Below, piece by piece: positions 1 to 15,060 of a stretch of 64,000 nucleotides of DNA. Positions within the stretch are counted from its first letter, which is position 1. Every line of letters begins with the position of its first letter. A program made the translations under genes and the position numbers. The DNA is from Rhodoblastus sp. 17X3 (GTDB taxonomy: Bacteria; Pseudomonadota; Alphaproteobacteria; Rhizobiales; Beijerinckiaceae), in contig NZ_JASHHX010000001.1 of assembly GCF_030056575.1 (NCBI RefSeq), positions 310,001-374,000 of the forward strand, in the 5' to 3' direction. The notes under the pieces are model-generated. The model saw nothing but the letters and a program-made list of their open reading frames with translations. It did no database searches and had not been told where the DNA came from.

Positions 1-1
1 C

Positions 2-460
2 CAACAATTGTCGGACACTGGCGTCGACCGGGAACAGTCACCTCAACTTCCGAGGACCTGGGCGGACTTTGAAGAGTGGTGCGATCGGGCTCTTGTGGGT
101 CGCGTGACTTTGACGAGTGCAGCACGGCGCGGATGCAAAAAGGCTTTGTTCGACGATGTGGAGCAAGCGGCCCGTTGTCTGCTTTGGTTGGCGACGACCT
201 GCCGCGATCGCTGGCTAATGGGTGGCGGGTCATTGCGCGATGAAACGGTTGAGGAGGGTATCCGCAATTCCCCGTGCGGCAGTGATGAATTTTTCTTCCA
301 TTGGCAAGCGCGCCGACTGAACGCGGAATGGCATATCAAGACCGGCGGCAATACGCGCGCACCCGAGAGCTGTTTGCGCATCTACTATGGGTGGGATGAC
401 CAAGCACAGCAGATTATCGTCGCAGACATGCCGGCGCATCGACGAACGGGCGCAAGCTGA
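2..460 (+). CDS. Hypothetical protein, 5' partial
   Basis: The frame is open to the left edge of the window (codons CAA CAA precede the first TTG at 8), so this is probably the C-terminal part of a longer protein whose start lies outside. The visible part is about 150 residues. Its last 60 residues contain the block WHIKTGGNTRAPESCLRIYY followed by acidic residues and MPAHRRT near the end, a compact tail that I remember from hypothetical proteins of mobile elements but cannot assign a function. No membrane segment or catalytic motif is evident. It sits upstream of the DUF932 gene on the same strand, about 200 bp away. Assignment of function would be guesswork. Confidence 0.55.
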   Translation, partial: QQLSDTGVDREQSPQLPRTWADFEEWCDRALVGRVTLTSAARRGCKKALFDDVEQAARCLLWLATTCRDRWLMGGGSLRDETVEEGIRNSPCGSDEFFFHWQARRLNAEWHIKTGGNTRAPESCLRIYYGWDDQAQQIIVADMPAHRRTGAS

Positions 461-658
461 ATGTTGGAGCGCCAACCGTACCAATCCAGTTGCCGCACGC
501 GGCGCGAAGTTGGCGCATATTCGCCAGAATGTCTCGCAGGGGGTCTTTGTGCTTCCGTTTCACGAACGCAATTCTGCGAATTGTTTACTTTAAGGCGACC
601 GCTTTTGTAATCCGTTACGGTATCGGCGCGAATGCCAGAAAATGATTGAGAGCATCAG

Positions 659-1666
659 ATGTCAGCTTTGAACCTTTTGCCCGACCAGCCCTCATGGCGC
701 TCGCGCGTCGTCAGCTATTACTCCGGCGACTGGAACGCGATCCTCAGCGTCATACCGACATTTGAACTTGAACCGTTTCGGGACGGACCTGACGAGCCGC
801 AGAACCCATTCTTGCAAACTGTCGTGAGAAAGCCTCGGTCGCCGGTTGAGCGGCGAATGCCGATCGGCGTGGTATCAACGAGCTACGCGCTTGCACGCCA
901 CGACGAAGTGGCGATGCTCTGTCCTGGCGCACTCAAGAGCGCAGGCGTGAACGTCGAAGAATTGCGCTAAGAAATCGGGCTCTCTGAGCTTGGCGAGTGG
1001 ATGAACTTGCGCATCTATTTTCCAGATCGTGACGCCATCACAGACCGATATGGCCGGAAGCTCGGGTTGCGTCTGGAGTGCTTCAATTCGGTGGACGGTT
1101 CATCGCGTCTCGTCGTGCTGTTCGGCTGGCTCAGGTTCGTGTGCAGCAACGGACTGGTGATCGGAGAAACCAAGGTCGAAATCAGGGAACGCCACGGCCA
1201 GAGCCTGGATTTGTCCGAAATTTCCGACCGGATACATTCAGCAATTACAGCGGTTAAGGCTGACCGCGAGAGAATGAAAAATTGGCAGGAGCAGCCTGTC
1301 GCCATTAGCGACGTCGCCGATTGGGTGAACAAACACCTTTCGGCGCGATGGGGCAAGAAAGCTGCCGCGCGAGTTTACCACATTTGCGACGCCGGCAAGG
1401 ATGTCGAATTGACCGAGCCGTTTGCCAAAAGCGAGGCGACCGAGAAACCAGTGAAGTTCCTCGATCCGGTGCCCGGTCAGCCGGTGAAAGCTCAAACGAA
1501 ATACGACGTGGTTCAGGCTATGTCATTCGTGGCGAGCAGGCGCAACAATGCCGAAGAGCGGACCGAATGGCAGGCTTCGATCTCATTGCTCGCTGATGCG
1601 CTTCGAGTATGCAAGACGCGCCCGCGCATCCCCGCAATTGACGAGCGCGCTCCCACACTGTTCTGA
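659..1666 (+). pseudogene. DUF932 family gene interrupted by an in-frame TAA
   Basis: Two open stretches, 659-970 and 1001-1666, lie in the same reading frame and are separated only by a TAA at 968-970; the frame is otherwise open between them (EIGLSELGEW precedes the ATG at 1001). The first part gives 103 residues with PIGVVSTSYALARHDEV, the second 221 residues with LRLECFNSVDGSSRLVVLF and VCSNGLVIGE. Joined they match the layout I know for DUF932 (phage/plasmid-related) proteins of about 330 residues. The function of the family is not established; it is typical of plasmids and integrative elements. A single base change would restore a sense codon. The options are a nonsense-mutated gene, readthrough, translation restart at 1001, or a sequencing error. 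Confidence 0.75.
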
Positions 1667-1690
1667 CCGGGACGCGCGGCAAACATCGAC

Positions 1691-1881
1691 GTCCGATCGA
1701 GATCAAAGTTGATCGGTCGATCCTGCGATGCGCAATATGCTTCCTTGAATTTGCTGGGTAACCAACTCCAGCGGGTTCTCGCGCTCACCAGCGAGCGTCA
1801 ATTTGTCGTTGAACATACCAAGATGGCGCGCAACCTTTTCCAGCGCAGCCATTTGATCGTGCAATTCGACCTCGATACCAT
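1691..1881. repeat. Direct repeat, left copy (terS 3' end)
   Basis: This stretch is collinear without indels to 7374-7564. The first 33 bases (1691-1723) are identical to 7374-7406; the rest is clearly homologous but diverged, mostly at third codon positions of the minus-strand reading frame. The two copies are in the same orientation and bracket about 5.5 kb of cargo. Confidence 0.85.
1703..1881 (-). pseudogene. Terminase small subunit, C-terminal remnant
   Basis: On the minus strand the frame reads GIEVELHDQMAALEKVARHL and ends GSTDQL before a TGA at 1705-1703. This aligns residue for residue with the last 59 or so residues of the intact TerS at 7386-8012 (GVEVEFHDQLAALEKVARHL ... GSTDQL). 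Homology stops abruptly near 1881, and nothing resembling the TerS N-terminus or zinc ribbon lies between there and the 3' end of the TPR gene at 1930. The changes between copies are largely conservative or silent, so this is a diverged paralogue cut off by recombination rather than a recent copy. It has no start codon of its own that would make sense. Confidence 0.85.
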
Positions 1882-1929
1882 TCAGGATTACCCCGGGCGA
1901 AGAAGGCCTCCGCTGCCCGCTGAGTTTCT

Positions 1930-3948
1930 TCAGGTCGAGCCCTTACACGAATTGGCGACAGAGCGGGCCTCCACCGCCTTCATGCCCCATTTGCCGCCCT
2001 TCTTGTCGTAGCTGAGGATTGCGGTTCCCTCGACCAAATCTCCCGAAGCAATGCCAGCAGCCGCGACGAGATGCTGCGGTATGAAGATGTCGTCCTGTGT
2101 GAAGCCAAATCCCCTGTTGCTGACCTCCGTCGACTCAAGAAACGTGCGGCAGATGGTCGGCGACGGGCTTTGCTCCGAAGTTGTCATCGACAGGATGTGC
2201 GTGCGCTCGCCACTTCGGCCGTGAGATCTGGCCATACGGACAGCGACGGCAACCCCGACCTTCGGATCGCCCGGATAGGCCGAGATCGGGCAAACGCCGT
2301 CTACGCCTCGCGCGACAATCACATGGATCAACGACCTTTCCCAATTGACGTGGTCGATCACCCCGATCCGTTCGGGAACGGCGTCCATAGCGCTCCCGTC
2401 CGGACGTGGCCTGACGCGGTGGATCGTCGTCCGCCATGGCTCGGCCCTGGACGTCTCATATTGCACGAGCAAAGGGGTTCCTGCGGCCAATCCTCGGACA
2501 TCGGCGTGCGTGTCCGGCAGATTCAGTTCGAGGGCCGTCGAGTGCTCTCGAACATAGATGCGGCGCCGCCGCCTCGGCTTCTGCCCGTCCTTGCCGTCTA
2601 CCGTGAAGATATCGCCCAGCGAGGCGTCCGTCCAGGGCAGATGCGAAAACAGCAGCGCATCGGCCTCTTCGGTGAAGCGGGCGTAGAAATCCCGATCCGT
2701 CGACTTGGGGCTCGCGGCGGCGAACCAAGCGCTTTCCGACATCGCCTTTGCGTCGCGCGGAATGCGATAGCCCGAATGCGCCCGGTGCGAGAGAACGCGC
2801 TCGACCTCGAAGCGCGCCTCGGCAGGATGCTGATCGGCGACGAGCGCGGCGAGTTTCAGGCGCACCTTTCCGACGAAATCGTCGTCCTGGGAACAAATCA
2901 GCGCCTTCGCAAAACAGGAAAGCTGCAAAGCGGCATCGCCGGGCGACAAATCCGCGATCAAATCCCACACCCAGTATTCGGTCGCCTTCTCCCGTGCAAA
3001 TTCGATCGCGAGCGCGCGCGCCTCGCCGGTTTTGCGCAAACCCCGAAGCAGTTTGACAAGATGGAGTTTCAGCCAGATGTGCTCGGGGAAGCGCTTCAGC
3101 GCGGCTTCGACATGGGGCAGGATGAAGCGAAGATCGTCCGGGCGATCGCCTTCGATCGCTTCGGCGGCCGCCGCCTGAAGGGCGCGTTCGGCGAGCGAGA
3201 CATAGGTCTTTCCGTCGCTGCCCGTCTGGCTGGCGAAATCCTCCTCGGTGAGACGGTCCGGATTCCACAGGCGCAGGAAGGGCAGCGCCTTGAGATGATT
3301 TCCCTTGGTCAGACGGAGGGCCAGGGTCAGCATCACGCTGTGCAGATTGACTGACGCCGGCTTCGCCTGGAAGATGCCCCGACCCGAGGTCGGGTTGCGC
3401 GGCTCTGGCTCCATCGAGCACCGAGTTAGATAAGTGTTCAGGCAGCGTTTCACGCGTTGAACGATGGCGGGCGGGATTTCGTCGCCATCGGTTTTGCTCA
3501 GTTCGGCCTTGCGCAGGTCTTCCCTAGCGATGTGGTAAAGGTCCCACCCCCAGGACTTGCAGTCTTCGGGGCGCAATGCGCCTTGCGTGTGAAGTCTGGC
3601 GTAAATGTCCGCAGCCTCTTCATGCCGCTTCTGCTTACTCAGGGCTTGCGCCTTCATCGCTTCGCGCCGGTCGGCCCGTCCCAGCGCCAGGGCTCTTTCC
3701 TTGCCGCTGGCTAAAATGTCGTTTTCGGCCGGCGGCTCGAACGCCTCGAGACGGCGCAGCCATTCCGCCAACGCCGTCTGGTTGCCCTCGGCTGCGCAAC
3801 GTTTGACGAGGTCGATGAGGCACCAGCCATGGGCGGCGCGGTCCCAGTCGTCGGCCTCCGGCGCGGCAATCAGGTCGAGCGAAGCCGCGTAGGCCTCGTT
3901 GAGGCTTCCGGCCCTCCGCATTGCCGTCACTTCCTTCGACGTGATCAA
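1930..3948 (-). CDS. TPR-repeat protein with C-terminal S1/cold-shock-like OB folds
   Basis: 672 residues. The first two thirds are alanine- and leucine-rich helical repeats of TPR character (for example EEAADIYARLHTQGALRPED and TKGNHLKALPFLRLWNPDRL). The last 240 or so residues are beta-rich: RRRRIYVREHSTALELNLPD, then a stretch ending NRGFGFTQDDIFIPQHLV and GKWGMKAVEA, which looks like a cold-shock/S1 OB fold. From memory, TPR proteins with S1/CSD-like tails are partners of SF1 helicases in predicted nucleic-acid conflict systems (called TOTE); a profile search is needed to confirm membership. The TTG start at 3948 overlaps the helicase stop (TTGA), so the two are translationally coupled. 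An ATG at codon 10 is an alternative start. Confidence 0.75.
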   Translation of the reverse strand: MITSKEVTAMRRAGSLNEAYAASLDLIAAPEADDWDRAAHGWCLIDLVKRCAAEGNQTALAEWLRRLEAFEPPAENDILASGKERALALGRADRREAMKAQALSKQKRHEEAADIYARLHTQGALRPEDCKSWGWDLYHIAREDLRKAELSKTDGDEIPPAIVQRVKRCLNTYLTRCSMEPEPRNPTSGRGIFQAKPASVNLHSVMLTLALRLTKGNHLKALPFLRLWNPDRLTEEDFASQTGSDGKTYVSLAERALQAAAAEAIEGDRPDDLRFILPHVEAALKRFPEHIWLKLHLVKLLRGLRKTGEARALAIEFAREKATEYWVWDLIADLSPGDAALQLSCFAKALICSQDDDFVGKVRLKLAALVADQHPAEARFEVERVLSHRAHSGYRIPRDAKAMSESAWFAAASPKSTDRDFYARFTEEADALLFSHLPWTDASLGDIFTVDGKDGQKPRRRRRIYVREHSTALELNLPDTHADVRGLAAGTPLLVQYETSRAEPWRTTIHRVRPRPDGSAMDAVPERIGVIDHVNWERSLIHVIVARGVDGVCPISAYPGDPKVGVAVAVRMARSHGRSGERTHILSMTTSEQSPSPTICRTFLESTEVSNRGFGFTQDDIFIPQHLVAAAGIASGDLVEGTAILSYDKKGGKWGMKAVEARSVANSCKGST

Positions 3949-6635
3949 GGGCTGACCTCCGCCAGCACCGCCCGTACATCGTTTTGCAACGCCACCAGCG
4001 TCGGCCCCGGATTGGGCGCCGGGTTGACGGGCCTGAAATTAGTGATCTGATCGCGGCCATTATAAAAGATATTGACGTCCACGGTGTCCGAACCGCGCGC
4101 AAGCCTGTAGCGCAGCGCGAAGTCCTGCTCCCTGAGTTCCGCCACGCTGACACTGCGACGGGCCAGCGCCGCCACCAGGCGAACATGGTATTTCCTCAGG
4201 AAGGGAAGCCTCGGCTCGGATACGGCGCCCGCCCGGGGGGGCAAGCCGGTCGGCCTTAGCCCGACGATCGGGACGATCCGCTCGACCACGCTCTCGGCGA
4301 ACGCGGATGGGCGTGGGCTGGAGACGCACGAAACCTTCCAGTCCCCCTTGTAGGTGATGTCGATCCGGGCGGTCTCCGCATCGCGTTTGACAAAATAAGC
4401 CTCACGATAGGGATAATGGGCGATGTCCTCGATCTCGACGCCGGTTCCGGACAGGCGCGCGCCAATTTCGGATTCAAGCCATTGACGGCACATCGCTTGC
4501 GGCGAAAGCGTCGCCAGCGCCTCGGCCTCCTTTACGGGCGCAGGCGCAGGCGCGGGGTTTTGCGCGACTTGCGCCGCCGTTTCGTCCGGCGTTACCCAGT
4601 CGCCTGCGGGGTCGGACGGAGGCTTGGTCTTGATGTCGGGCGGATCGACCAGGTAAAGCTTGGCGCTGGTTCGAGTCATGGCAGTATAGAGCCAGCGGAA
4701 ATAGTCCGCCGAGCGCGGGTTCCGGTTGGTCGCGCAACTAGCGATGACGTGGCTCCATTCGCCGCCCTGCGCCTTGTGGCAGGTGACGGCATAGCCGAAC
4801 CGCAGCCTGAGCGCGGTGAAATAAGGATCGGACCGCATGGCGAGCCGGAACTCATCACGGTCCCTCTTGCGATCGATGTGCTTATGGCGCCGCACAAAAT
4901 CGACATAGAGGGCGCGCTGCTGGAGAGGATCGAGGCCCGCGCCGTCGCCGTGCAGGACGTCATCGAGGATTTTCGTCGAAAGCATGAGATCTTCGCCGTC
5001 TGGTTGGGGCATGGCGACGATCACGTCGCGAAACCGCATGACGACATTGACGATTTCAACGACCTTGGTGTCGCCGAGCTTCTGTTTCAGTTGGACCGAG
5101 CGGCTCTCCACCACGGGTTCGACGGATTCGATACGAAGAATCTCGCCATTGGCGATGTAATGCGTCGCGCAAAAGCCGTTCGCGATGACAATCACCGTAT
5201 CGCCGGCGGCCACATAATTGCGTCCCGGAAACAGCCGGGCGCGAATGGCGCGGCTGAACTCGGCCGCCTCCGCATTCGAGTGGGTGACGATGATCGGTGC
5301 CTGAGGACCGCGCCCCTCGCGGATCCTCATGTAGAGATCGGTCACGCGGTCCCTATCCAGGCGGATCACGTCGTCGTCATAGGTGAAGGCGAGGCTGCTG
5401 AAGCTGCCCGCCGCCAGGCATTCGCGCAGAGGCATGACGTTTCGCAGCACCGCGCTACCGGCTTTCTGGCGGACGATTTCCGTCAATTCGTAGCTCGCCG
5501 AGACAAGGCCGAAAGTCTGGAGCAGATAGTCGCCATCGAGCGCCGGGGAATAGGGCATGTTCACCGGAGGCAACTGCGCTGGATCGCCGATAAAGATGAT
5601 CTTGCGGGCATTGCCCGAATGGGCTGATCCGACATAGGCGATCAGGTCTTGCAGAAGAAACCCGCTGCCCGAGCGGAAAAACTCGCTCTCCGCCTCGATG
5701 TTGGAGATCAGCGACGCCTCGTCGACGATGTAGACCGCGTTGATTGGATGGTCATTTTGAGCGACCTTGGCGATCATCTTGAATGTCGAGGCTTCATCGG
5801 CTTCATCATCGGCATGCTCGGTCATGTCGCTGTAAGTGTAGATGAGGCTGTGGAGCGTACGGGCGGGTTGTCCGGTCTTCGACCCAATGGCCTTGGCCGC
5901 GCGGCCCGTGGGCGCGGCCAGCGAGAAATCCCGCCCTTGGGTGAGCAGGTATTCGGTCAATCCGGCGGCGAGAAAGGTCTTGCCCGTCCCGGCATAGCCC
6001 TTGAGCAGGAAAATCCGGCCCCTGTCGTCGGCGAGAAACGCCTCAAGGGCCTCGATGCACCGCTCCTGGTCCTCCGTGAGGTCCGCCTCGAAGGCTTCGC
6101 GCAGCCTAATCCGTGTACGTGGTGAGCAGACGCTGGGCTCCGTCGCGGTGACATCGTCCTGAATGCGCACGTTGCGCAGGTTCGGAGAACGCGAGACCGT
6201 CGCAACTGTCCCGGCATCTGCGATCGTCCACGCGACGTCCGGCCGCATGCGGCGGCAAAACCAGGATGCGAGCGACCATGCGTCCTCGATCAGGTTTTCG
6301 GCCTGCGCGGCTGAAACTGAGCCGTTGTGCGCGGCCACGTTTCCCAACTTGCGTATTGTATGAAACTTGGCCAGGAGTTGCGCATCAAGACGTGCTTCGC
6401 GCCGAAGTATTCCTAACCTGTCGTATAGCTTGTCCTGCGCGTCCAGCATCAAACCCATGTGCTGGAGAAGGTGATCGACCATGATCTCGACGAAACCACG
6501 CAATCGGACCGCAGCGAAGGTGGGAAGGATTGCTGCGCTCCGTTCGGCCTCGACGGCAAGCGCGTACAAATCCGGCCAAAAGGATTGCAAAAAATTAAAT
6601 CGTTCTGATTGTTGTGCAATTCCGACAGCGCTCAT
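3945..6635 (-). CDS. DUF4145-like plus superfamily 1 (RecD/AAA_30-type) helicase
   Basis: 896 residues. The N-terminus (about 40-130) resembles DUF4145: RLRGFVEIMVDHLL and RKLGNVAAHNG. A helicase core follows: Walker A GYAGTGKT at about 213-220, APTGRAAKAI at about 241-250, Walker B VDEAS at about 304, motif III GDPAQLPPV at about 350, and the late UvrD-like motifs TCHKAQGGEW and YTAMTRTSAKLYLV near 630-680. About 200 further residues form a tail with no motif I recognise, containing two similar-looking beta-rich segments. The likely activity is ATP-driven translocation or unwinding of nucleic acid. It starts the cargo operon and overlaps the TPR gene by 4 bp. DUF4145 is common next to or within restriction and defence proteins, which with the setting suggests an anti-phage role; that is inference. 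Confidence 0.8.
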   Translation of the reverse strand: MSAVGIAQQSERFNFLQSFWPDLYALAVEAERSAAILPTFAAVRLRGFVEIMVDHLLQHMGLMLDAQDKLYDRLGILRREARLDAQLLAKFHTIRKLGNVAAHNGSVSAAQAENLIEDAWSLASWFCRRMRPDVAWTIADAGTVATVSRSPNLRNVRIQDDVTATEPSVCSPRTRIRLREAFEADLTEDQERCIEALEAFLADDRGRIFLLKGYAGTGKTFLAAGLTEYLLTQGRDFSLAAPTGRAAKAIGSKTGQPARTLHSLIYTYSDMTEHADDEADEASTFKMIAKVAQNDHPINAVYIVDEASLISNIEAESEFFRSGSGFLLQDLIAYVGSAHSGNARKIIFIGDPAQLPPVNMPYSPALDGDYLLQTFGLVSASYELTEIVRQKAGSAVLRNVMPLRECLAAGSFSSLAFTYDDDVIRLDRDRVTDLYMRIREGRGPQAPIIVTHSNAEAAEFSRAIRARLFPGRNYVAAGDTVIVIANGFCATHYIANGEILRIESVEPVVESRSVQLKQKLGDTKVVEIVNVVMRFRDVIVAMPQPDGEDLMLSTKILDDVLHGDGAGLDPLQQRALYVDFVRRHKHIDRKRDRDEFRLAMRSDPYFTALRLRFGYAVTCHKAQGGEWSHVIASCATNRNPRSADYFRWLYTAMTRTSAKLYLVDPPDIKTKPPSDPAGDWVTPDETAAQVAQNPAPAPAPVKEAEALATLSPQAMCRQWLESEIGARLSGTGVEIEDIAHYPYREAYFVKRDAETARIDITYKGDWKVSCVSSPRPSAFAESVVERIVPIVGLRPTGLPPRAGAVSEPRLPFLRKYHVRLVAALARRSVSVAELREQDFALRYRLARGSDTVDVNIFYNGRDQITNFRPVNPAPNPGPTLVALQNDVRAVLAEVSP

Positions 6636-6979
6636 TTCAATCTAGTTCCGTCTGCAGCTATCTTTCTCAGCGCGCCCCGCACCTAAGCGGCTAACACCTT
6701 GAAATTTTTTGAAAAAAGCAACTTCATTTGGAAGTCTGCGTCGCGTTGCAGGACTACGAGGAACGTTGAAGGCGGCTCTCATCTGGCGGTCAACGAACGA
6801 CCGATTTGAAGGCCGTAAAGTAGACGCGTGACAGTCCGTTGTCTATCAGCGGGGCGATATGAGGCGGCCACAGGCGATGCCTGAAAGTTATTCCTCGAAC
6901 CGGGGGCCCTTAAACGATGAGCGATCCGAAGTTACCTTTGACCTGAGGATTCGAGGCACAACGGGAGCAGCAATTCTCC
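6636..6979. other. Intergenic region upstream of the helicase operon
   Basis: 344 bp without a convincing gene. It presumably holds the promoter of the minus-strand helicase/TPR operon. The segment nearest the helicase start is AT-richer (runs of T and A near 6695-6725), but I see no clear -35/-10 pair or operator. No HsdR-like coding continues here in any frame I read. Confidence 0.5.
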
Positions 6980-7255
6980 TCAACCGCCGGCGCGGGCCAC
7001 AATGGCTTCATGTACGATGACCGGTCCGGGCGCCAGCGTCACTTCCCGCCTAATTTGCGCCAGTGGGTCCCAGTTCGCAGCTCTAATTTCCGGGGTAATG
7101 AAATGATCGCAAATATCTGACGCGCTCAGAAGCAATTTGTCTTTATTCTCCAAATCTGCGCTCCCAATCGGACCAGCATGGCGATGGACAGGTTTATGAT
7201 TCCATCCTTTAACTGCTCCGAGCATCGCCGTCGCCAAGAAAAAGTATGGCATCAA
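6980..7255 (-). pseudogene. Type I restriction HsdR N-terminal relic
   Basis: A 91-codon minus-strand frame. The second half, SASDICDHFITPEIRAANWD followed by QIRREVTLAPGPVIV, matches the very N-terminus of type I restriction endonuclease R subunits (EcoEI-type), where the motif continues into the nuclease and helicase domains over 700 or more residues. Here it stops after about 50 homologous residues with TGA at 6980. The first 40 residues do not look like HsdR. No methylase or specificity gene is nearby. It is best read as a decayed or recombined end of a lost restriction system, possibly still translated as a short peptide. Confidence 0.6.
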
Positions 7256-7373
7256 TTATGCCAAACAATCGCCTTCTGTGGCTTTTCGTAAATCCCGCTC
7301 TGACCAGAGCGGCTAGGCTGGTGGCCAACTGGTTTGCGCGCCCAATAGCCCCTCGCGATGGCCAGACTGCCGA

Positions 7374-7564
7374 GTCCGATCGAGATCAAAGTTGATCGGT
7401 CGATCCGACGACGCGTAATGTGCTCCCTTGAACTTGCTGGATAAGCAATTGCAGCGGGTTTTCCGGTTCGCCCTTCAATGTCAGCTTATCATTGAACATG
7501 CCAAGGTGGCGTGCAACCTTTTCCAGCGCCGCCAATTGATCATGAAACTCGACTTCGACGCCAT
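7374..7564. repeat. Direct repeat, right copy (terS 3' end)
   Basis: Right-hand partner of 1691-1881. It comprises the last 59 codons and stop of the intact terS plus a short downstream stretch. Identity is perfect over 7374-7406 and extends 12 nt beyond the stop codon, so the shared block is not limited to coding sequence. Confidence 0.85.
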
Positions 7565-8012
7565 ATTTCGTCTGCTTTACACGAGCCAATAATGCGCGAG
7601 CTTGGGGGCTGATGGTGTCCAGGTCGACGATTACAACCTGCGACTTTCCTTTGCCGCAGCAGTGACGACAGTCCGGGTTCGGCGCATCGCGATAAGGGGC
7701 GTCTTGCCAGCAATTTGGGCAAGGAACGGCAGCGACGCTGACGATTTCGCGCGGGTCGGCGGTTGCAATGTCCCAAAGGCGCCGCAGGACGTCTTCCGCT
7801 CGAATGTTCAAGTGCTGAGCCCGAGATTGCATTTCACGTTCGATTTCGGCGGCAACCTGAGCGTTTCTGAGCAACCTGGCGGCGTTGACCTCCGCGGAAT
7901 TGCCTTGAGCGGCATAGCCGGCGCGCCGATAGGCGGCGGCGGCGTTGAGGTCCCTCAAATAATGCCGGACGAACTCCTGCTGCTTCCGGGGCAATGTATT
8001 TTTTGGCGGCAT
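7386..8012 (-). CDS. terS: Phage terminase small subunit (Terminase_2 type) with zinc ribbon
   Basis: About 208 residues from the ATG at 8012 (MPPKNTLPRKQQEFVRHYL), chosen because GGAG lies about 10 nt upstream and a TATAAT-like box lies just beyond; a longer frame begins at 8060 but that would precede the likely transcript start. The N-terminus has the Terminase_2 helix-turn-helix signature (NAAAAYRRAGY and ARLLRNAQVAAEIEREM). The middle carries a four-cysteine pair, CPNC and CRHC, which fits a zinc ribbon. TerS recognises packaging sites on DNA and recruits the large terminase. No large terminase is in view, which fits a satellite that redirects a helper phage's motor. A truncated paralogue lies at 1703-1881. 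Confidence 0.8.
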   Translation of the reverse strand: MPPKNTLPRKQQEFVRHYLRDLNAAAAYRRAGYAAQGNSAEVNAARLLRNAQVAAEIEREMQSRAQHLNIRAEDVLRRLWDIATADPREIVSVAAVPCPNCWQDAPYRDAPNPDCRHCCGKGKSQVVIVDLDTISPQARALLARVKQTKYGVEVEFHDQLAALEKVARHLGMFNDKLTLKGEPENPLQLLIQQVQGSTLRVVGSTDQL

Positions 8013-8046
8013 CGTTGCGACTCCGTATTCTTCTGTAGAAGGCTGG

Positions 8047-8080
8047 AAAATTATACACAAAAATATGTAACTACGATACC
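8047..8080 (-). promoter_or_regulatory. Candidate terS promoter
   Basis: The 130-bp gap between the primase-helicase stop and terS is strongly AT-rich. On the minus strand a TATAAT box occupies 8055-8050, about 40 nt before the terS ATG at 8012. No good -35 box is visible at the right spacing, so an activator or a phage-type promoter is possible. Confidence 0.4.
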
Positions 8081-8143
8081 AGTTTAAATGTTATATATCT
8101 TATATAAGAGGTATTATTTCGATATATATTGATAGCCTGAGGT

Positions 8144-11100
8144 TTATGTGGCGATCTTGCCTGCAGCTTTATCTTGTACCGTCTCTTCAATTGGGGGGCG
8201 CGGCTGAGTGCCCGACATCTCGTCGGGCTCATATAGAGAACGAAAATCCTCGAACGTCGCGTCGCTGGTCGAGACGATCGGTAACGGACGGGTAGCCGAT
8301 GCCGTCGCCGGGCCATTGGGCTGAATGAGCCGAACGAACTTTTCGTCGTCGATCTCAACAATTTCGACCGGTCCGGCAGCCCTGACTTTTGCCTCGCCGC
8401 GCTGAAAAGCCTTCTTGCATGCATCGACCGCCCTTCGGTCGGCGTTGTCGATGCCGCGCTGACGCTTAAACTCAGCCCGCACGATTTCGCGATTTACGGC
8501 AAACATTTCTGTCAGGTTCGATCCGGTGGCGCGGATGACCTGGCCCTTTTGACCCAGCGCTTCACACAGCGCCATCAGATAGGTCTCGGCGTCGTGAGAA
8601 TGCTTTTTGGGCTTTTCGGGGCGGTCGTGGCTACAGGATTCGGGACCAATCATCTCGAACTCGGCAAGCGGTCCGATCGAGGTCTCCAGTGCCGAGCGGG
8701 GATCAGTGACGATGCGTGGGTCATAAATGGCCAATTGCTCGCGCTCGCCCACCCCCCACCTTCGGAATCTCACAAGGGGACACAACGACCGAACATCGCG
8801 ACATTTACCTATAGAAGCTTCCTTATAGGCATTTGTCGCATTGAAAGGGTTGGTGTCCCCCATTTCGCTGAGGGCGCGCTCGATAGCCCGTTGCGCCGCT
8901 GCACTCGTCCCCCAAAGGCTCGGATAAGCTTCCGCCGCGCTGCGGCCGCTTCTGAAAGCGAAGTCGCCCTCCGCCAACATGAGATCCAAAGGACCGACCT
9001 TCATGGCGTCGTCGGGCAGAAATTCATCAACGGGCAACGGTAGCGGGACGTCTGTCAAAACGACAACATCCAGGGGCGTCGCTTCCGTGCGATTCACGCC
9101 ACGCCCGCGGCCGATGGCCTGGACGATTTCGCCAACGCAAATCCGCTCGCGGAAACTTTCGCAAAAGGCGTCGGGATGCAGGTCGGCAGAGGAAAGCGTG
9201 CACGTGATGCCGGAGTCCTCACGGTGGTAACGAAAGGCGTCGCCCTTTTTGTACCAACTGTCAGCCGGCCCGACGTCGAACTTGCCGATGTTTCGGCCCT
9301 TACCAAGTTCCTGAACGGCCCGGCCGGTAAGCGCGCTGGCCATCCATTCGACATCGGCGGGATTCGGCTGCGGCCGGCCGACGATCACGATGAGCCTAAC
9401 GTCTTTCCAATTGTCTCTCCCGGCAACTGCGCCGAACCATGCAACCTCGATATGGTCCGGGAAGTCCATCGCCTGAATGACAGCTTTGTTACCGACGACG
9501 AGGGTTTTTCCGCCCGTTTCTCGATCCAGTCGGAGAATCAGGGCGCGAAGCCTCCGGCGATTCCCCGCACGCGTTTTTTTACTCTCGTCGTTTCCGCGCA
9601 GGTTCGGGGACAAATGACTGAGGGAGTAGCTCTTGCCTGTCGCTTGCCTGACCCGTTGGAAAGGCGCGGCGATGCGAATGTGGCCCATATCTTGGACCAA
9701 GGGCCAAAACGGATTAATCAATTCGGGATCGTGCAAGGCGTCGATCAATAATGTTGGCGCGTCCCAGTCGGCATGTATTTCCGAACGCCCGGTGACAGAT
9801 AGAAGCCTCACGCCTCGTTTATCTCGCTCGATTTTCAATCGCCCTGATACTTCTGGGCCGTCGTCGGCGAGAAGTTCAACGATCGCACCCCAGATAGCGG
9901 CCATCGGGCGGACGCTGCGATTTCCTTCGCGTTCACGCCATTTAGGAACTTGCCGCTTTTTGATCTTGCGTTGCCATTCGAGCTGCTTCGCCCGCTTCGC
10001 GAGGTTGGACCTGATGTTGAAGTCGGGTGCATTGGTAACCGCTGCACGCCGCACATAGCCGTCGGGCTCGTCAAAGAGAGCCTGGGCCAGCAGATGACGG
10101 GCGTACATAAGATCGAGGCGGTCATTTTCCTTCTTGGGCAACGGCAAGTAATTGTCTATGGCGTCAAGCGGGATTTCCAATGGTGGTTGGAGGCCAGCCT
10201 GAAAAGGTCCTTCGTCGACGACAATGGCCACGATGCCCCGATCTCGGATGGGCGTGGGCGCGCTGTTGAACAGGAGATTGTGGGCGCCGATCCAAATATC
10301 GACGTTGATGACGCCCTTCTGGAGCCGATATTGGCAGCCATCGAAGAACTGGCACGCTTTTTTGCAACAAACCTCTGTGCCCAACTCAGCGAGAATCTCG
10401 ATCGCCTCGTTCACCGTCTCGTGAGCCTGGCACATTCGTTCGTCGGAGTCGGGGCGCACTCGCGCAGCGCGACCGCGCCAGACCATCGAGACCAAATTCG
10501 AGCCGGCAGCCTTGAGTTTTTCTTCCACTCGCCGCTCAATATCGGCTGCCAAGGAATGTCCTGGCGTCAAAATCACGACAACGCGGTTGTCGCCAACTTT
10601 GCGGAGATCGATCAGAAGGCGAATGGCGTCATCGATGGCGGCTTCGGTCTTGCCGCCGCCGACTTCGAGCCCGATGGCGTGAACACGCGTCAAAATGGCG
10701 CGGAGGCTGACGGACTCCCTTTCATTCGGCCAATTTCTTGCTGTCTGGAAGAAAACGCCTACCAACTCTCTGACGCGAAGGCGCGCTTCGTCCAGGCGGA
10801 GATATTCCGGAATCGGCTGCGCCATATCGGAGGCGGCAAGCGCGATCCGTTCTCGGACCGCATCGAGCCCGCGCTCCTGGGTCAAATCATTGAAGTCGCT
10901 TTTGTCTCCCCGACGGATCGGATGCGGCCAAGCCTCGCGCACATCGAAGCCGTTGGCGCGCAGACTGCGAACAGCTTTATTTGCCGTTTTCGCTGCTGAT
11001 GAGCCGAATTTGTCGTCGTCACGGCAAATGATGACCTTGCGCCCAGCCTGAGCCAAGTCGGCCGCACGGCCCATTCCGCCGAGAAGCACGATGGTCTCGA

Positions 11101-11956
11101 AGCCAGTTGCCGCCCAAACGCTCAGGCCGGTTTCCAGCCCCTCGCAAATGCAGAGCGGGCCGGTGGTTTCGCCAGGCAAGCGCACTGCGCCAGAGCCGAT
11201 CGGACCCAGCGACTTTTTGGCCCCGCCCTTGCCGAGCCAGCGGATGTTGTCCTTCGTTCCATCTCGCGTGACGGCGATCTTCTGGATTGCGACGACTTGT
11301 CCGGTGTCGTCCATTACGGCGCAAACGATCGCGCGCTCTCTAACGCTCCAGCGGATCGATGCAGGAAAACGATCGACGCCGATTTTGCGTGTATCGCGGA
11401 GATATTTCTCGCCGAGCGTGCCCTCGATCCGACCAGATTCGTTCCAGATTTTTTGCGCATGAGCACGGCTTCGCGCTGCCGCGGCGGCCTCTTGGGCCGC
11501 TTCCTGGGCCTCTTTCTGGGCACGCGCGCGGTCTTGCTTTTCTTGTCTGGAGGTTTCCTCTGCGCGGGGCTCGTATTCGCCAGAAAACCCTACCCAGCCG
11601 GCGGCCCATTCGACAGCCTCGGAAAAGCTGAGGCCCAGTTGACGCATGATAAACTTGAAGAGGTCGCCTCCTTCGCCGGCCTCGAAATCGTAATAGCAGC
11701 CTCGGTAGCGACCTGAGAGCTTCAGCACAAAGGAGCCGTGGCACCCCCAACGAATCTCGCCGTTGCGGGCGCCTCCGGTCGGCTTGTCGCCTCGAAAATG
11801 CATTATGAGATCTGCAGCGCGAAAATTCAGCGCCTCGCGAACACTCGCAATGCGATATTTCCGGCGCCCGCGCCGATCAGATTCGTGCTGGCGGGACGAC
11901 GACTTCCGGCCTTTGACAGAGCCGTTCTTATCGTCGTCCGAGGAATCGGCGGACAT
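8144..11956 (-). CDS. TOPRIM primase fused to SF2-type helicase, replication protein
   Basis: 1270 residues. The N-terminal 120 residues include a CHC2/DUF7146-like zinc or DNA-binding segment (WGCHGSFVLKL ... CYYDFEAGEGGDLFKFI). After a charged coiled stretch (about 130-165, alternating Gln, Glu, Ala and Arg) comes a TOPRIM domain: LCICEGLETGLS at about 268, IICRDDDKFG at about 309 and KSDFNDL at about 352. A helicase follows: Walker A VGGGKTEAA at about 432, VVDEGPF in the middle, and QAIGRGRGVNR (motif VI-like) in the last third. This fits initiation and unwinding for element replication. It lies 30 bp downstream of the HTH gene and is probably co-transcribed with it. A length above 1200 residues in one chain is large for satellite primases. 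Confidence 0.8.
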   Translation of the reverse strand: MSADSSDDDKNGSVKGRKSSSRQHESDRRGRRKYRIASVREALNFRAADLIMHFRGDKPTGGARNGEIRWGCHGSFVLKLSGRYRGCYYDFEAGEGGDLFKFIMRQLGLSFSEAVEWAAGWVGFSGEYEPRAEETSRQEKQDRARAQKEAQEAAQEAAAAARSRAHAQKIWNESGRIEGTLGEKYLRDTRKIGVDRFPASIRWSVRERAIVCAVMDDTGQVVAIQKIAVTRDGTKDNIRWLGKGGAKKSLGPIGSGAVRLPGETTGPLCICEGLETGLSVWAATGFETIVLLGGMGRAADLAQAGRKVIICRDDDKFGSSAAKTANKAVRSLRANGFDVREAWPHPIRRGDKSDFNDLTQERGLDAVRERIALAASDMAQPIPEYLRLDEARLRVRELVGVFFQTARNWPNERESVSLRAILTRVHAIGLEVGGGKTEAAIDDAIRLLIDLRKVGDNRVVVILTPGHSLAADIERRVEEKLKAAGSNLVSMVWRGRAARVRPDSDERMCQAHETVNEAIEILAELGTEVCCKKACQFFDGCQYRLQKGVINVDIWIGAHNLLFNSAPTPIRDRGIVAIVVDEGPFQAGLQPPLEIPLDAIDNYLPLPKKENDRLDLMYARHLLAQALFDEPDGYVRRAAVTNAPDFNIRSNLAKRAKQLEWQRKIKKRQVPKWREREGNRSVRPMAAIWGAIVELLADDGPEVSGRLKIERDKRGVRLLSVTGRSEIHADWDAPTLLIDALHDPELINPFWPLVQDMGHIRIAAPFQRVRQATGKSYSLSHLSPNLRGNDESKKTRAGNRRRLRALILRLDRETGGKTLVVGNKAVIQAMDFPDHIEVAWFGAVAGRDNWKDVRLIVIVGRPQPNPADVEWMASALTGRAVQELGKGRNIGKFDVGPADSWYKKGDAFRYHREDSGITCTLSSADLHPDAFCESFRERICVGEIVQAIGRGRGVNRTEATPLDVVVLTDVPLPLPVDEFLPDDAMKVGPLDLMLAEGDFAFRSGRSAAEAYPSLWGTSAAAQRAIERALSEMGDTNPFNATNAYKEASIGKCRDVRSLCPLVRFRRWGVGEREQLAIYDPRIVTDPRSALETSIGPLAEFEMIGPESCSHDRPEKPKKHSHDAETYLMALCEALGQKGQVIRATGSNLTEMFAVNREIVRAEFKRQRGIDNADRRAVDACKKAFQRGEAKVRAAGPVEIVEIDDEKFVRLIQPNGPATASATRPLPIVSTSDATFEDFRSLYEPDEMSGTQPRPPIEETVQDKAAGKIAT

Positions 11957-11986
11957 GGCCGACTTCTCTTGACGCGAGAAGCGCCG

Positions 11987-12259
11987 CTATATGTCCGAGG
12001 TCGATTTGCGCGCCGCGCCGATCTTCGCGAGCGCCCACTTATCCAGTGCTTCGCGCGTATACAAGACGATGCGGCCGGCCTTGTGAAATTCAGGGCTGTC
12101 GCCGGTAACGGCGCCTTTCGCAAGCGTGCGCGCGGCGCCGAAACCGTATTTTTCGGTGAGATAGGCGCCGGCTTGCTTGCGGCGCAGGAAGCGTGGCGAC
12201 GGGGTGACCAAGTCGGCGAGCGGCTGAAAGGGAACAGCGTTCGGGGTCGGAGCAGGCAC
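11987..12259 (-). CDS. AlpA/excisionase-like helix-turn-helix protein
   Basis: 90 residues, GTG start at 12259 preceded by a perfect GGAGG at 5-7 nt. The central part PRFLRRKQAGAYLTEKYGFG and the end RIVLYTREALDKWALAKIG are the HTH_17 (MerR/excisionase-like) pattern used by AlpA regulators of satellites and integrative elements. It probably binds DNA near the att site or activates the downstream replication genes. It is the first gene of a probable unit with the primase-helicase. Its ribosome-binding site lies in one arm of an inverted repeat (12265-12286), so translation or transcription may be controlled there. Confidence 0.7.
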   Translation of the reverse strand: MPAPTPNAVPFQPLADLVTPSPRFLRRKQAGAYLTEKYGFGAARTLAKGAVTGDSPEFHKAGRIVLYTREALDKWALAKIGAARKSTSDI

Positions 12260-12264
12260 GGAAG

Positions 12265-12286
12265 AACCTCCAGAATGTTGGAGGTT
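12265..12286 (-). promoter_or_regulatory. Inverted repeat enclosing the HTH gene's ribosome-binding site
   Basis: Arms AACCTCCA (12265-12272) and TGGAGGTT (12279-12286) are perfect complements with a 6-nt spacer. In the minus-strand RNA the 3' arm contains the GGAGG that ends 5-6 nt before the GTG start, so the folded hairpin would hide the Shine-Dalgarno. It could equally be a dimeric operator for autoregulation. Confidence 0.55.
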
Positions 12287-12322
12287 TCCAATTATTCCGG
12301 GTCGTTCAGGAACTGAGGGATG

Positions 12323-13258
12323 TTAACTGGCCGATTTTGGCGGCGCTTCAACCTCCGGAGGCAATCCGAGGCGTCTGTGGCTGCGAATTGCTAAATATTT
12401 GAATACCTTGTTCAGCCGAACTTCCCTCGTGAGAGTTTTGTATTCACGTCCCTCGTTTCGCGCTTTCTCCGCCTTCGCTTGTTCGCGGAAGGCGTTTTTC
12501 CCCAATCGGCTATTTTTGTAAGCGCGCCAGGCGGCGCTCGCCGCCGCCGCCATGGTTTCGTCGGCCGCTTCATTGTCCCGCCCGATGTGCCGGCGATATT
12601 CCTCCGGGAATCGGTCCTGCAACTCATGGAGCAGCTTAACAGCCGGCGACGGGCCCTTATTCGTGCCGCGCTTATTGACTGTGTAAGGCAGTCGATAAGA
12701 TTGAAGCGCTATCATCAGGCGCACAACCATCTTGGCCCATACAACCGGCCCCTTTTTGCTCGAGGTCACGTCAATGTTCTTAAGGTCGTTGACAAAGTCT
12801 CGTGCGGCCAACCTGATTTCGTCTGGTGTGGTCACAAAATTCGCAGCGCTGGTCTCATCAGACGTTGATGTTTCGTCAAATAGATAATTTTCTAGGAAGA
12901 CATCTCGCGCAGCTTTTTGTGCCGCATTGTGTGGAAGCTTGGCCAAAGATTTCGGGGGGAATGAAGACCCCGCTATTTTTTCGATATAGGCGATCGCCTC
13001 ATCAGCGTAGGGCTTGTGTTTGCTGCAATCAAAGAACCACAAATAGTCGTCGACAATGTTTTCGATCTCAGAGCGCAAAGCGTCAGGCAGCTCATTGCCA
13101 TAGGCGCACTCTATATCCTCCCAATCCGCACTTGATGGCTGGAAGATCGGCGCATCCTCTGGTTCCTGATAAAAATTCGAGCGCGGCTTGCGGCCCTCGC
13201 GGGTCAGTTTGACCCAGCTATCCACACCGCCGAAGTTTGGCGGACTTATCTTTTTCAT
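12323..13258 (-). CDS. Hypothetical element protein, 311 aa
   Basis: I do not recognise a family. The protein is mostly helical and charged, with no signal peptide or membrane span. The N-terminal 100 residues are acidic, with DDYLWFFDCSKHKPYADEA; the middle contains WAKMVVRLMIALQSYRLPYT; the C-terminus is basic with repeated Lys/Arg/Ala (NAFREQAKAEKARNEG). Its ATG at 13258 overlaps the stop of the preceding 55-aa gene (ATGA), and that gene overlaps the integrase in the same way, so the three are made from one message starting at the integrase. Its place between integrase and HTH regulator is where satellites keep accessory or interference genes; its role is unknown. Confidence 0.6.
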   Translation of the reverse strand: MKKISPPNFGGVDSWVKLTREGRKPRSNFYQEPEDAPIFQPSSADWEDIECAYGNELPDALRSEIENIVDDYLWFFDCSKHKPYADEAIAYIEKIAGSSFPPKSLAKLPHNAAQKAARDVFLENYLFDETSTSDETSAANFVTTPDEIRLAARDFVNDLKNIDVTSSKKGPVVWAKMVVRLMIALQSYRLPYTVNKRGTNKGPSPAVKLLHELQDRFPEEYRRHIGRDNEAADETMAAAASAAWRAYKNSRLGKNAFREQAKAEKARNEGREYKTLTREVRLNKVFKYLAIRSHRRLGLPPEVEAPPKSAS

Positions 13259-13422
13259 TCGGCGCCGCCCGATTTCTTGATCGGGACGACCTCACCGCCT
13301 TTGTTTCGCTGCATCGCCGCAGCGATAGCCGCTCCGGCCATGTCGACCGGGCGGGGCAATGGGTCGGCGTCATCCATCCGCCAATAGCGGTGCGCCAGCA
13401 CGGCTTGGCTAACCTCAATCAC
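13255..13422 (-). CDS. Small protein between integrase and 311-aa gene, 55 aa
   Basis: GTG at 13422 overlaps the integrase stop (GTGA), and the TGA at 13257-13255 overlaps the next ATG (ATGA). The product reads VIEVSQAVLAHRYWRMDDAD and continues PLPRPVDMAGAAIAAAMQRN, ending PIKKSGGAE. The double 4-bp overlap is strong evidence that it is translated, though it is below usual length cut-offs. No family is recognised; the short aromatic/acidic N-terminus and Ala-rich middle suggest a small helical protein. Confidence 0.65.
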   Translation of the reverse strand: MIEVSQAVLAHRYWRMDDADPLPRPVDMAGAAIAAAMQRNKGGEVVPIKKSGGAE

Positions 13423-14765
13423 AAGCCGCGTCCACGGGATTGTGCCGCGTGAAAATCAACAATATCAGCCCGGCGCTCGTCCAATGCGTGCGCAATTCGC
13501 TTGGAAACCCGATCAGCGGCTGCAATTAATGCCTCATCGGCGCGGCGGACATAGTGCCTCTCTGTCACGCCTCGCTTAGCATGGCCTAGCAATTCACCAA
13601 TTGTCGCGTCGCCATAGCCCTCGTCGGCGGCGACGCTGCCGAACGTGCGTCGCAAATCATGCGCGCGGGCGTCAGACAGGCCCGCAGCGTTGAACAAAGC
13701 GGCAATTGCCTTTTTCATGTCGGCGCTGTTGTCGCCGCGCTGGTTTGGGAACAGCCAGGCGCTATCATTCTTTGATAGGCCTGCTAGCAAATCGAATGCC
13801 GATTTGCCTATTGGCCGCATAGACCGGCCCGTCTTGGTTTGCTCAAGGCGCAGACAGAAGGATGCTCGGTCGATTTCGCACCACTTGAGCCCGCACGCCT
13901 CCTCACGGCGCATGCCTGTTAGGGCAATTAGCCGCAGGGCTGCTACGGCAGCAGGATATTGTGCTTCCCGCTCACGTAACACTTGCCCGAGCTTTGCAAG
14001 CTCATCGGCCGATAAAACCCGATCTTTGGCGTCGCCTTTTATCTTCTGGACGCCATGAGCTGGGTTGATGCCAGTAGCCAAGCCTCGGCGCTCTGCCCAC
14101 GTCCATATACCGCCAAGCAACTCAACCACGCGGGCCGCCGTGCCCGTTCCGCCTGTAATGACGGCCTTGCCGCGGGCCTTCGTCTTGAAGGTGCCAGCGG
14201 TCTTTCCAACAGAAATGTCGTCGACCATCCGTTGAACGGCCGCCCTGTTCAATTTATCGATAACGGTCGAACCGATCAGCGGCTTGATGTGGCGCGAGAT
14301 ACGCCCTTCGTCGATGGCAACAGTTGAAGCCTTCTTCGGCTTGTTGAACCGCGTCGTAACAAGTCCTTCCCGAGCAGCTTCAAGATACCTGTCGCAGAGC
14401 TGGGAAATGGTTAGGGCTGTGCGAGCAGCGACGCGTTCAGCAGCCGGGTCCGCGCCTTCCGCCGCTTGAGCTAACAGTTTTCGAGCTTTCTCTCGCGCCT
14501 CATCCGGAGTGACGACGCCCATTTTAGCGAAGGTGTGCCTTCTGTCCTTCCGTGGGCCGTGCAGGATGAAATACGAGGCTTTGCCTGACGACTGCATCCG
14601 CAGACCGTAATAGCCCAATTCGGTGTCGAACACTGATAGGTCACCGCTTTCCGGGGGCTTGAGCCCGTCGATGAAGCGTTTTGTAAGTTTGGCGTGAAGG
14701 GTTGCCATATCGAATGCGGTCTCGCTTTCGGCAGTGCAGCGGCAGTAGCCGGCGTGAATCACCAT
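13419..14765 (-). CDS. int: Tyrosine recombinase / phage integrase
   Basis: 448 residues from ATG 14765; a second ATG at 14708 (MATLHAKLTKRFIDGLKPPE) fits the usual start of the family better. The N-terminus is the DUF4102 arm-binding domain (LGYYGLRMQSSGKASYFILH). The catalytic domain shows the first Arg in LTGMRREEACGLKW, the HxxR box in AHDLRRTFGS and LLGHAKRGVTERHYV with the second His and the nucleophilic Tyr. It catalyses site-specific integration and excision. It lies 116 bp from the tRNA-Val att core and heads an overlapping run of three genes, an arrangement that ties accessory expression to integrase transcription. Confidence 0.95.
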   Translation of the reverse strand: MVIHAGYCRCTAESETAFDMATLHAKLTKRFIDGLKPPESGDLSVFDTELGYYGLRMQSSGKASYFILHGPRKDRRHTFAKMGVVTPDEAREKARKLLAQAAEGADPAAERVAARTALTISQLCDRYLEAAREGLVTTRFNKPKKASTVAIDEGRISRHIKPLIGSTVIDKLNRAAVQRMVDDISVGKTAGTFKTKARGKAVITGGTGTAARVVELLGGIWTWAERRGLATGINPAHGVQKIKGDAKDRVLSADELAKLGQVLREREAQYPAAVAALRLIALTGMRREEACGLKWCEIDRASFCLRLEQTKTGRSMRPIGKSAFDLLAGLSKNDSAWLFPNQRGDNSADMKKAIAALFNAAGLSDARAHDLRRTFGSVAADEGYGDATIGELLGHAKRGVTERHYVRRADEALIAAADRVSKRIAHALDERRADIVDFHAAQSRGRGL

Positions 14766-14880
14766 CTCACTTGAGAATGCTCAGGTAAAGGGGGAAGGTC
14801 TAGAAATGCCCGCAGCACAGGGTATTTTTGGTCTGGCGACGATATTTCGGCAGTCAGGATAGAGCCAGAAAACATAAAAC

Positions 14881-14932
<52 letters not shown>

Positions 14933-14937
14933 TTTCG

Positions 14938-14985
14938 AAAGCCCTGAGATTGCTAGAAAAACTAGCCCTCAGGGCTTTCGCTTTT
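14938..14985 (+). terminator. Rho-independent terminator after tRNA-Val att
   Basis: AAAGCCCTGAG and CTCAGGGCTTT are perfect complements enclosing a second short stem (CTAG/CTAG) with an A5 loop, followed by CGCTTTT. It is presumably the original chromosomal terminator of tRNA-Val. Confidence 0.75.
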
Positions 14986-15024
14986 CTGGCGCCAGATTTC
15001 GCCGGGGAAGCATGGGGGAAGCAG

Positions 15025-15060
15025 TTGGCGGGAATTCGGGGAAGCGTCGGGTAAATTCGC
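15025..15060 (+). repeat. Short dispersed repeat, copy 1
   Basis: AATTCGGGGAAGCGTCGGG followed by TAAATTCGC resembles 17994-18020 (AATTCGGAGAAACGTCGGG then TGAATTTGC) with 4 differences in 28 positions. Both copies lie in non-coding or poorly coding sequence, so this may be a family of short intergenic repeats. Confidence 0.45.

Follow-up and report, generated by a model that had tools for sequence, protein, structure and literature searches.

What does a bacterium, or the mobile element it carries, gain from a helicase whose gene overlaps that of a TPR protein ending in OB folds? The question is raised by a locus of Rhodoblastus sp. 17X3, lying in a window of 64,000 nucleotides (the whole stretch of DNA analyzed here; contig NZ_JASHHX010000001.1, positions 310,001 to 374,000) for which an earlier note, made from the sequence alone, had proposed a candidate defence or conflict system. 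Both open reading frames (ORFs) lie where that note had placed them, on the strand it had given, and the 4-bp overlap it described is likewise found on checking: it consists of TTGA at 3945-3948, with TGA the stop of the helicase and TTG the start of the TPR gene.

3945..6635, minus strand: helicase gene, 896 aa, HEPN(DUF4145) - SF1B helicase - two TBP-like repeats; PADLOC PDC-M16A (ORF list, Pfam and PADLOC profiles)
1930..3948, minus strand: TPR-OB partner gene, 672 aa; PADLOC PDC-M16B (ORF list, Pfam and PADLOC profiles)

By its profile matches the pair is an additional member of PDC-M16, a candidate immune system already named in PADLOC, and not a new kind of system; by its domain content it is a TOTE-type (TPR, OB, TBP, Effector) module. 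The reading we favor, with a probability of roughly 0.6, is an immune role directed at phages or other invading nucleic acids.

The class assignment is carried by two scores. The helicase matches PDLC04472 (PDC-M16A) with 1047 bits in two stretches, of which the best covers residues 161-892, and the TPR-OB protein matches PDLC04488 (PDC-M16B) with 748 bits over residues 1-665; on these proteins the two models outscore every other PADLOC family by far. Three TOTE-named Pfam families are found on the two proteins, bearing out the link to TOTE conflict systems that the earlier note had drawn. The accompanying suggestion of a "minimal or variant form" is superfluous, because the two-gene arrangement already stands as a PADLOC class. 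The expansion of TOTE and a citation of Aravind, Iyer and Burroughs 2022 are given in the excerpted text of a 2025 preprint (PMC12458937). Literature searches by "TOTE conflict systems", PDC-M16 and the Pfam and PADLOC family names gave no paper, and those by family names, PDC-M16 and domain combinations found no TOTE or PDC-M16 mechanism in print; a word search of a 2026 BREX survey (PMC12839542) returned no TOTE, TPR, DUF932 or HEC-07.

Behind its N-terminal domain, the helicase comprises a motor and a C-terminal doublet:

4647..6083, minus strand: SF1B (RecD2/Dda-like) helicase core, residues about 185-663 (profiles and motif alignment; no confident fold in the model)
4266..4502, minus strand: TBP-like repeat 1, residues 712-790 (Pfam profile, model)
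3954..4205, minus strand: TBP-like repeat 2, residues 811-894 (Pfam profile, model)

Matches to AAA_30 and UvrD_C_2 define an SF1 core, and its Walker A, DEAS, GDxAQLPP and motif VI residues are kept in 17-18 of 18 aligned helicase rows, a count that excludes the frameshifted helicase of genome G926 and an HsdR control row. RecD/RecD2 proper was considered and rejected, the best NCBIfam score being 96 bits against a cut-off of 500. SF1B enzymes of the RecD2/Dda type undergo ATP-driven movement of a characteristic polarity, and by analogy ATP-driven translocation is likely here. The last 200 residues, which the earlier note had said match nothing, in fact hold two stretches of TBP-TOTE (PF22721; E 9.6e-28), so that an "unknown" C-terminus is ruled out; DUF4145 and TBP-TOTE are present together in 12/12 aligned helicases. 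Profile search thus resolves both of the tails for which it had been proposed as a check, that of the helicase as the TBP-TOTE doublet and that of the TPR protein as S1CSD-TOTE-1 and -2.

The front end of the helicase is, by profile and fold comparison, a HEPN-fold domain of a kind common to HsdR:

6285..6551, minus strand: DUF4145/HEPN domain, residues 29-117, with invariant R46, E50, R95, N99 and H103 (Pfam, alignment, model pLDDT 64-90, Foldseek)

DUF4145 (PF13643) matches residues 29-117 with E 2.7e-6 (27.8 bits, cut-off 23.1). A Foldseek search with the helicase model places RnlA first (4i8o, E 1.6e-3, prob 1.00), followed at lower rank by the HEPN structures 2hsb (TMt 0.77, E 0.055) and 2q00 (TMt 0.71, E 0.12), and a weak RnlA_toxin_N match in the G926 helicase fragment (23.1 bits, cut-off 24) points in the same direction as the RnlA match. 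A sequence-profile search of solved structures with the HEPN and TBP parts gave no trustworthy match. Excerpts of a 2013 survey (PMC3710099) assign DUF4145 to the HEPN superfamily and predict RNase activity for those members of it that bear the motif; they list DUF4145 fused to REase/SF2 helicase as well as to "UvrD helicase (endoV alpha subunit)", and give Rx4-6H as a motif that DUF4145 mostly retains (80%). The five residues listed above are identical in 16/16 aligned rows, namely 15 proteins of the pair, the frameshifted G926 included, and the HsdR encoded by Rhodoblastus sp. 17X3 itself. The statement that the operon contains no nuclease may or may not hold: a domain of a superfamily with predicted RNases is present, and its R-x7-H spacing departs from the canonical motif. 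With the fold there and the canonical motif not, this copy of DUF4145 may be either catalytic, through a variant site, or a docking domain.

The docking alternative leads to a different account of the pair, in which DUF4145, in common with that of HsdR, would serve for docking without catalysis, and the two proteins would not act alone but process DNA ends or forks made by restriction systems. The NCBIfam Type I endonuclease model PRK11448 aligns with helicase residues 10-137 (E 5.2e-21, below cut-off), the own-genome HsdR (contig C11, a Type I R subunit) matches PDC-M16A positions 1-209 and has the same R46/E50/R95/N99/H103, the Shewanella pair is flanked by hsdS and hsdR, and an HsdR relic sits beside the window pair. 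On the other hand, Type I genes occur near the pair in 1/11 annotated helicase regions (plasmid gene tables being incomplete), the neighbor of the window pair is BREX, and the intact HsdR is on another contig. We consider a restriction accessory unlikely.

The partner protein contributes the TPR and OB elements:

2662..3078, minus strand: DUF7017 domain, residues 291-429 (Pfam, E 8.8e-39)
2407..2631, minus strand: possible third OB-like five-strand unit, residues 440-514, with no Pfam match (model only, pLDDT 56-78 in blocks)
2197..2385, minus strand: S1CSD-TOTE-1, residues 522-584 (Pfam, E 2.5e-18; low-confidence stretch in the model)
1969..2145, minus strand: S1CSD-TOTE-2, residues 602-660 (Pfam, E 1.1e-17; low-confidence stretch in the model)

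PF22860, PF22708 and PF22707 all score above cut-off on this protein, and the matches to S1CSD-TOTE-1 and S1CSD-TOTE-2 agree with the S1/cold-shock OB tail that had been read from the sequence. The TPR label holds for the predicted structure (pLDDT 70), which has TPR-like helical repeats and TPR proteins among its Foldseek matches, both S1CSD regions being poorly folded; it does not extend to the generic TPR profiles, which stay below cut-off on the 672-aa protein (TPR_19 E 0.034). TPR character is, then, a property of the model. Nucleic-acid binding by the S1/CSD folds is likely by analogy.

The two genes keep company well beyond Rhodoblastus. A TPR gene adjoins the helicase on the same strand in 21/21 helicase loci which, together with the domain set shared by all 12 aligned helicases, argues for a pairing beyond chance. 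Conversely, a TPR homologue is present in 22 loci, most of which had been chosen by helicase, and in 21 of them the helicase is its same-strand neighbor; of the six loci fetched via the TPR protein (L037, L038, L070-L073), five have the helicase alongside. In the loci compared, the neighborhood survey that the earlier note had proposed finds a coupled pair. An NTGA overlap is formed by the first start codon in 10/21 loci and is attainable with a later in-frame start in six more (four of the six are annotated so); it is absent from G351, MT835724, G375, G926 and Hymenobacter, the last with its TPR gene in two pieces. Near copies are included among the 21 (E. coli/Klebsiella/Senftenberg; G643/G756/G846; Frigidibacter/Leisingera), and A. 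baumannii L014 was excluded from the counts as the same helicase record as L040. Helicase and TPR distance matrices correlate with r 0.954 over 16 of the 21 loci (G375, G926, Hymenobacter, E. coli H15 and Senftenberg left out), a value reached in 0/2000 permutations from which shared descent was not removed; descent alone could explain much of it.

Two loci deserve separate mention. On a Runella plasmid (L038) the TPR homologue, at 7740-9209, has no helicase in the fetched stretch, and the ORF preceding it has no Pfam match; this TPR-S1CSD gene adjoins cas1/cas2 and a CRISPR-associated primase-polymerase. The G926 helicase (L045 9131-11796) is broken into two frames, with its TPR partner intact.

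How did the pair come to lie where it does? An exact 72-bp repeat occurs at C1:289945-290016 and C1:324883-324954 (window 14883-14954), 34.9 kb apart, and delimits an element (C1:289945-324954) that sits in tRNA-Val, extends beyond the window and carries BREX. From left to right its genes are BrxA, BrxC, PglX (two ORFs), a GmrSD_N protein, PglZ, BrxL and HEC-07, followed by DUF932, the pair, terS, a primase-like gene and the integrase; there is no BrxB among the element ORFs scanned. The part within the window is as follows:

2..460, plus strand: tail of a HEC-07 homologue, the last gene on the BREX side of the element (PADLOC scan of the 378 aa left of the window, not of this tail)
1001..1666, plus strand: DUF932 gene, shared with the related G965 element (Pfam, comparison)
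1691..1881, minus strand: relic of the terS 3' end, bounding the cassette on the left (copy of a 191-bp direct repeat, 80.6%; repeat comparison)
6992..7138, minus strand: HsdR N-terminal relic, 49 residues (PDLC03049, E 6.8e-6)
7374..7564, minus strand: corresponding 3' end in the intact terS, bounding the cassette on the right (repeat comparison)
7386..8060, minus strand: terminase small subunit gene, terS (PF03592, E 1e-32)
8144..11956, minus strand: primase-like replication protein of the element, with Zn ribbon, Toprim and a DEAD-like stretch (Pfam)
13419..14765, minus strand: tyrosine integrase of the element (PF00589, E 3.2e-21)
14883..14954, plus strand: right 72-bp attachment repeat, whose left copy overlaps tRNA-Val (GAC) at C1:289945 (repeat search, tRNA scan)

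Integrase, replication gene, tRNA attachment site and terS are all present, as expected of the satellite-like element that the earlier note had described, and no structural genes were seen among the element proteins scanned, a part of its ORFs. Satellite-like elements in tRNA genes with defence arrays are described in the available portion of PMC12458937. The HsdR relic that the note had placed beside the pair exists and is small: within ORF 6980-7255, 49 residues match the Type I REase profile, with no Pfam match and no tblastn match to the own-genome HsdR. Rfam gave nothing at gathering score in window 1-15500.

Between the terS relic and the intact terS end lie the HsdR relic, the helicase and the TPR gene. 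A related stretch in G965, of the same genus, encodes primase, terS and DUF932 proteins 40%, 73% and 96% identical to those of the element; there DUF932 and terS are direct neighbors that face one another, neither pair protein is present in the stretch, and the helicase is found nowhere in that genome. G965 DNA matches window 845-1879, that is, up to the break in the terS relic at which the cassette starts, and the relic is closer to the G965 terS end (84.0%) than to the element's own (80.6%). Because terS ends bracket the cassette and the G965 site is without it, we infer that the pair entered as cargo at a terS-anchored exchange point, in keeping with the cargo status proposed for it. These comparisons mark the pair as exchangeable cargo, its carrier being a satellite-like defence island inserted in tRNA-Val.

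Other features of these elements may be recorded here. The G965 element (L101 1306-10479) has other cargo at its DUF932 side, a SNF2-type helicase, a Type IIG-like methyltransferase and an AAA ATPase in a row, and a tRNA scan of the right part of that stretch found none; the limits of the G965 element were looked for without success. In the BREX locus of our genome, PglX is split into two overlapping ORFs (C1:298459-302279), the first matching a 640-position PADLOC PglX model and the second matching a 682-position one almost end to end; since each has a good PglX match of its own, the split may be natural and not a frameshift. The gene for the GmrSD_N/DUF262 protein sits between pglX and pglZ (C1:302276-304129).

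The distribution of the pair is sparse. It occurs in 1/11 genomes of its genus and 1/249 of its order, in both cases Rhodoblastus sp. 17X3 itself. In a phylum sample, DUF7017 was found in 4/398 genomes, exactly the four holding full-length helicases, and the pair proper in our genome, G351, G390 and G465, and distantly in G375. A count of 7/398 genomes by PDC-M16A was discarded because the matches in G566 and G305, and the second in our own genome (which is HsdR), span only model positions 1-210, the HsdR-like N-terminus. TBP-TOTE occurs in 6/385 genomes of the pair's own class, in 2/274 of the class of G390 (G390 included) and in 1/119 of the family of G351 (G351 itself). An E. coli pair, with a helicase ~37% identical to that of the window over the core, is matched in 53/5426 E. 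coli genomes, 42 of them with at least 80% of the query covered, at 29 chromosomal and 24 plasmid places; every record stands at 99% or more, and this suggests recent spread in E. coli. Plasmid relatives number 73 records, 10 of which were fetched.

Viral sequences scanned with the single window and Shewanella helicases gave no relative; a 12-helicase alignment gave at least 20 with 23-50% identity, most of them, among the matches listed, over the helicase core only. The pair itself was found in four IMG/VR contigs, in one of which (L072) ORFs look by eye like head-tail genes (one such ORF, tested, had no match among solved structures), and on two related conjugative plasmids it is flanked by relaxase and type IV secretion genes. 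One could read these places as those of a counter-defence or transfer aid, by which mobile elements help incoming DNA survive; restriction, Druantia, BREX and MkoA genes are, however, found next to the pair as well, and we hold such a role to be very improbable.

Defence neighbors of this kind speak for immunity. By PADLOC, the window pair is accompanied by BREX and HEC-07, the Aliiruegeria pair by HmaB and HmaC, and the Acinetobacter pair by MkoA and a DUF262 protein matching Orf5/HEC-06/SspE models. (MkoA is the PADLOC code for a Mokosh component.) The Shewanella pair has HsdS before it and HsdR after it (Type I restriction-modification), G465 has DruE (2325 bits) and PDC-M09A, Hymenobacter a PDC-S02 nuclease, and P. 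veronii PDC-M21A ~2.7 kb after the pair; G351 and Sulfurospirillum show partial or generic matches only. The defence neighborhood anticipated in the earlier note thus recurs across BREX/HEC-07, HmaB/HmaC, MkoA, Type I, DruE and PDC-S02 loci. As side observations, heat-resistance genes and insertion-sequence transposases lie near the E. coli and Senftenberg loci, the plasmid pairs (L016, L041) being close to a clpK/hsp20 heat-resistance cluster, and a Tn552-type invertase lies near that of Klebsiella.

A number of points weigh against immunity and must be set beside this. The neighbors were chosen for scanning and are not a random sample, with no random-locus control. No clear defence neighbor was seen on the Frigidibacter and Leisingera conjugative plasmids (the two just mentioned), in the E. 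coli, Klebsiella and Senftenberg regions scanned or read, or, with ORFs read by eye, around the pairs of G390 (three of whose ORFs have no PADLOC match), G926 and the genus of G643. No phage-challenge data on the pair were found in the literature searched. The helicase model is weak, with a mean pLDDT of 46 (HEPN blocks 64-90 over residues 11-130, TBP blocks 49-82, core mostly below 50), and its Foldseek search returned no match at E 1e-3 and unrelated folds interspersed among the others. In the HEPN domain, R95 and H103 are separated by seven residues, outside the canonical Rx4-6H, and position 98 is G in 15/16 rows and A in 1/16.

A further point is a branch of the family that has no HEPN domain. 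The HEPN-less pair is present in G643, G756 and G846 (L046, L047, L048), that is, in 3/3 sampled genomes of one genus of the pair's own class and every sampled genome of their family, in ~19 kb of syntenic chromosome at 92-93% near an acetyl-CoA synthetase gene, with no obvious defence genes around it on reading the ORFs by eye. MT835724, filed as phage, has a HEPN-less pair together with an RND efflux gene, for which reason it is probably chromosomal. In an unrooted tree five HEPN-less rows form one group (support 97/97); with G375 (end branch 6.4) included, the HEPN label needs two changes. This branch is chromosomally fixed in one genus, which tells against any blanket claim of defence: immunity cannot be assumed for all such pairs, and part of the wider family may serve in maintenance. 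The defence or conflict candidacy advanced in the earlier note is supported in part, by the TOTE families, PDC-M16 and the defence neighbors, and may not carry over to this branch.

Could maintenance of the cell or element be the function instead? A RecD2/Dda-like helicase with RNA and single-stranded DNA binders would clear hybrids or restart forks, and the defence neighborhood would be no more than a cargo hot spot. The syntenic HEPN-less pairs and the chromosomal look of MT835724 speak for this; the HEPN-bearing pairs, by contrast, are rare and mobile by the counts given above, and the element has a replication protein of its own. We regard this account as quite unlikely.

Returning to immunity, the domains, gene coupling, helicase motifs, mobility and cargo status can be read directly from the sequence. 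Beyond them we would infer complex formation, a ligand, a role for HEPN, TBP targeting and the immune outcome, which might proceed as follows. The TPR-OB protein would sense or hold single-stranded or structured nucleic acid via its S1/CSD folds and serve as scaffold and gate of the complex; the helicase, targeted by the TBP-like doublet, would move on invader DNA or RNA/DNA intermediates; and ATP-driven engagement would present or activate the N-terminal HEPN domain, which would cut RNA or dock the complex on another nuclease. A more specific composite, which we offer as speculation and with considerable doubt, would make the helicase an RnlA-like sensor-effector rebuilt around a motor: the TBP-like doublet would recognize invader RNA/DNA hybrids or R-loops, the SF1B core move on them, the R-x7-H HEPN cut RNA and the TPR-OB protein gate the whole, the gain of HEPN having turned an older chromosomal pair into mobile immunity. 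The idea of HEPN gain arises because the HEPN-less rows, bar the distant G375, form one supported group and the sole genus-wide fixed pair is HEPN-less. Two objections stand against it: the Hymenobacter pair, also HEPN-less, is plasmid-borne with a PDC-S02 nuclease next to it, and the tree is unrooted. The E. coli relative, in 53/5426 genomes, makes a laboratory test easy.

What is new at this locus is the HEPN assignment, the terS-bracketed cassette, the tRNA-Val element, the coupling of the pair and the HEPN-less chromosomal relative. For PDC-M16, to which the pair is alike in that adjacent genes match both the A and B models, with no essential difference seen, PADLOC supplies no mechanism; the locus supplies a part list, five invariant HEPN residues and an empty-site comparison showing optional cargo. 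RnlA/RNase LS, the anti-T4 HEPN toxin, resembles the pair as the top Foldseek match of the helicase model. In RnlA the domain order is TBP-like, then HEPN. By profiles and model the helicase does not share that order, and differs in having HEPN N-terminal, an SF1 helicase in the middle, TBP-like repeats C-terminal and a non-canonical motif; RnlA belongs to a HEPN family sometimes found with a TBP-like domain, according to the excerpts of PMC3710099. With TOTE systems the pair shares S1/CSD and TBP-TOTE domains and a TPR-like protein, whereas here TBP is fused to an SF1 helicase, and the RNase H domain that PMC12458937 calls frequent there is missing from the Pfam matches of the pair; the candidate effector is either the helicase, with its conserved motifs, or HEPN, with its non-canonical one. 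TALON, as the same preprint presents it, has the TPR-CSD and TBP common to TOTE but a YprA-family helicase and a NERD nuclease in place of the SF1B helicase seen here. A catalytic HEPN domain would mean that a single sensing logic underlies both RNase LS and TOTE systems; with a non-catalytic one, DUF4145 would appear to be a module for docking that HsdR and these helicases have in common.

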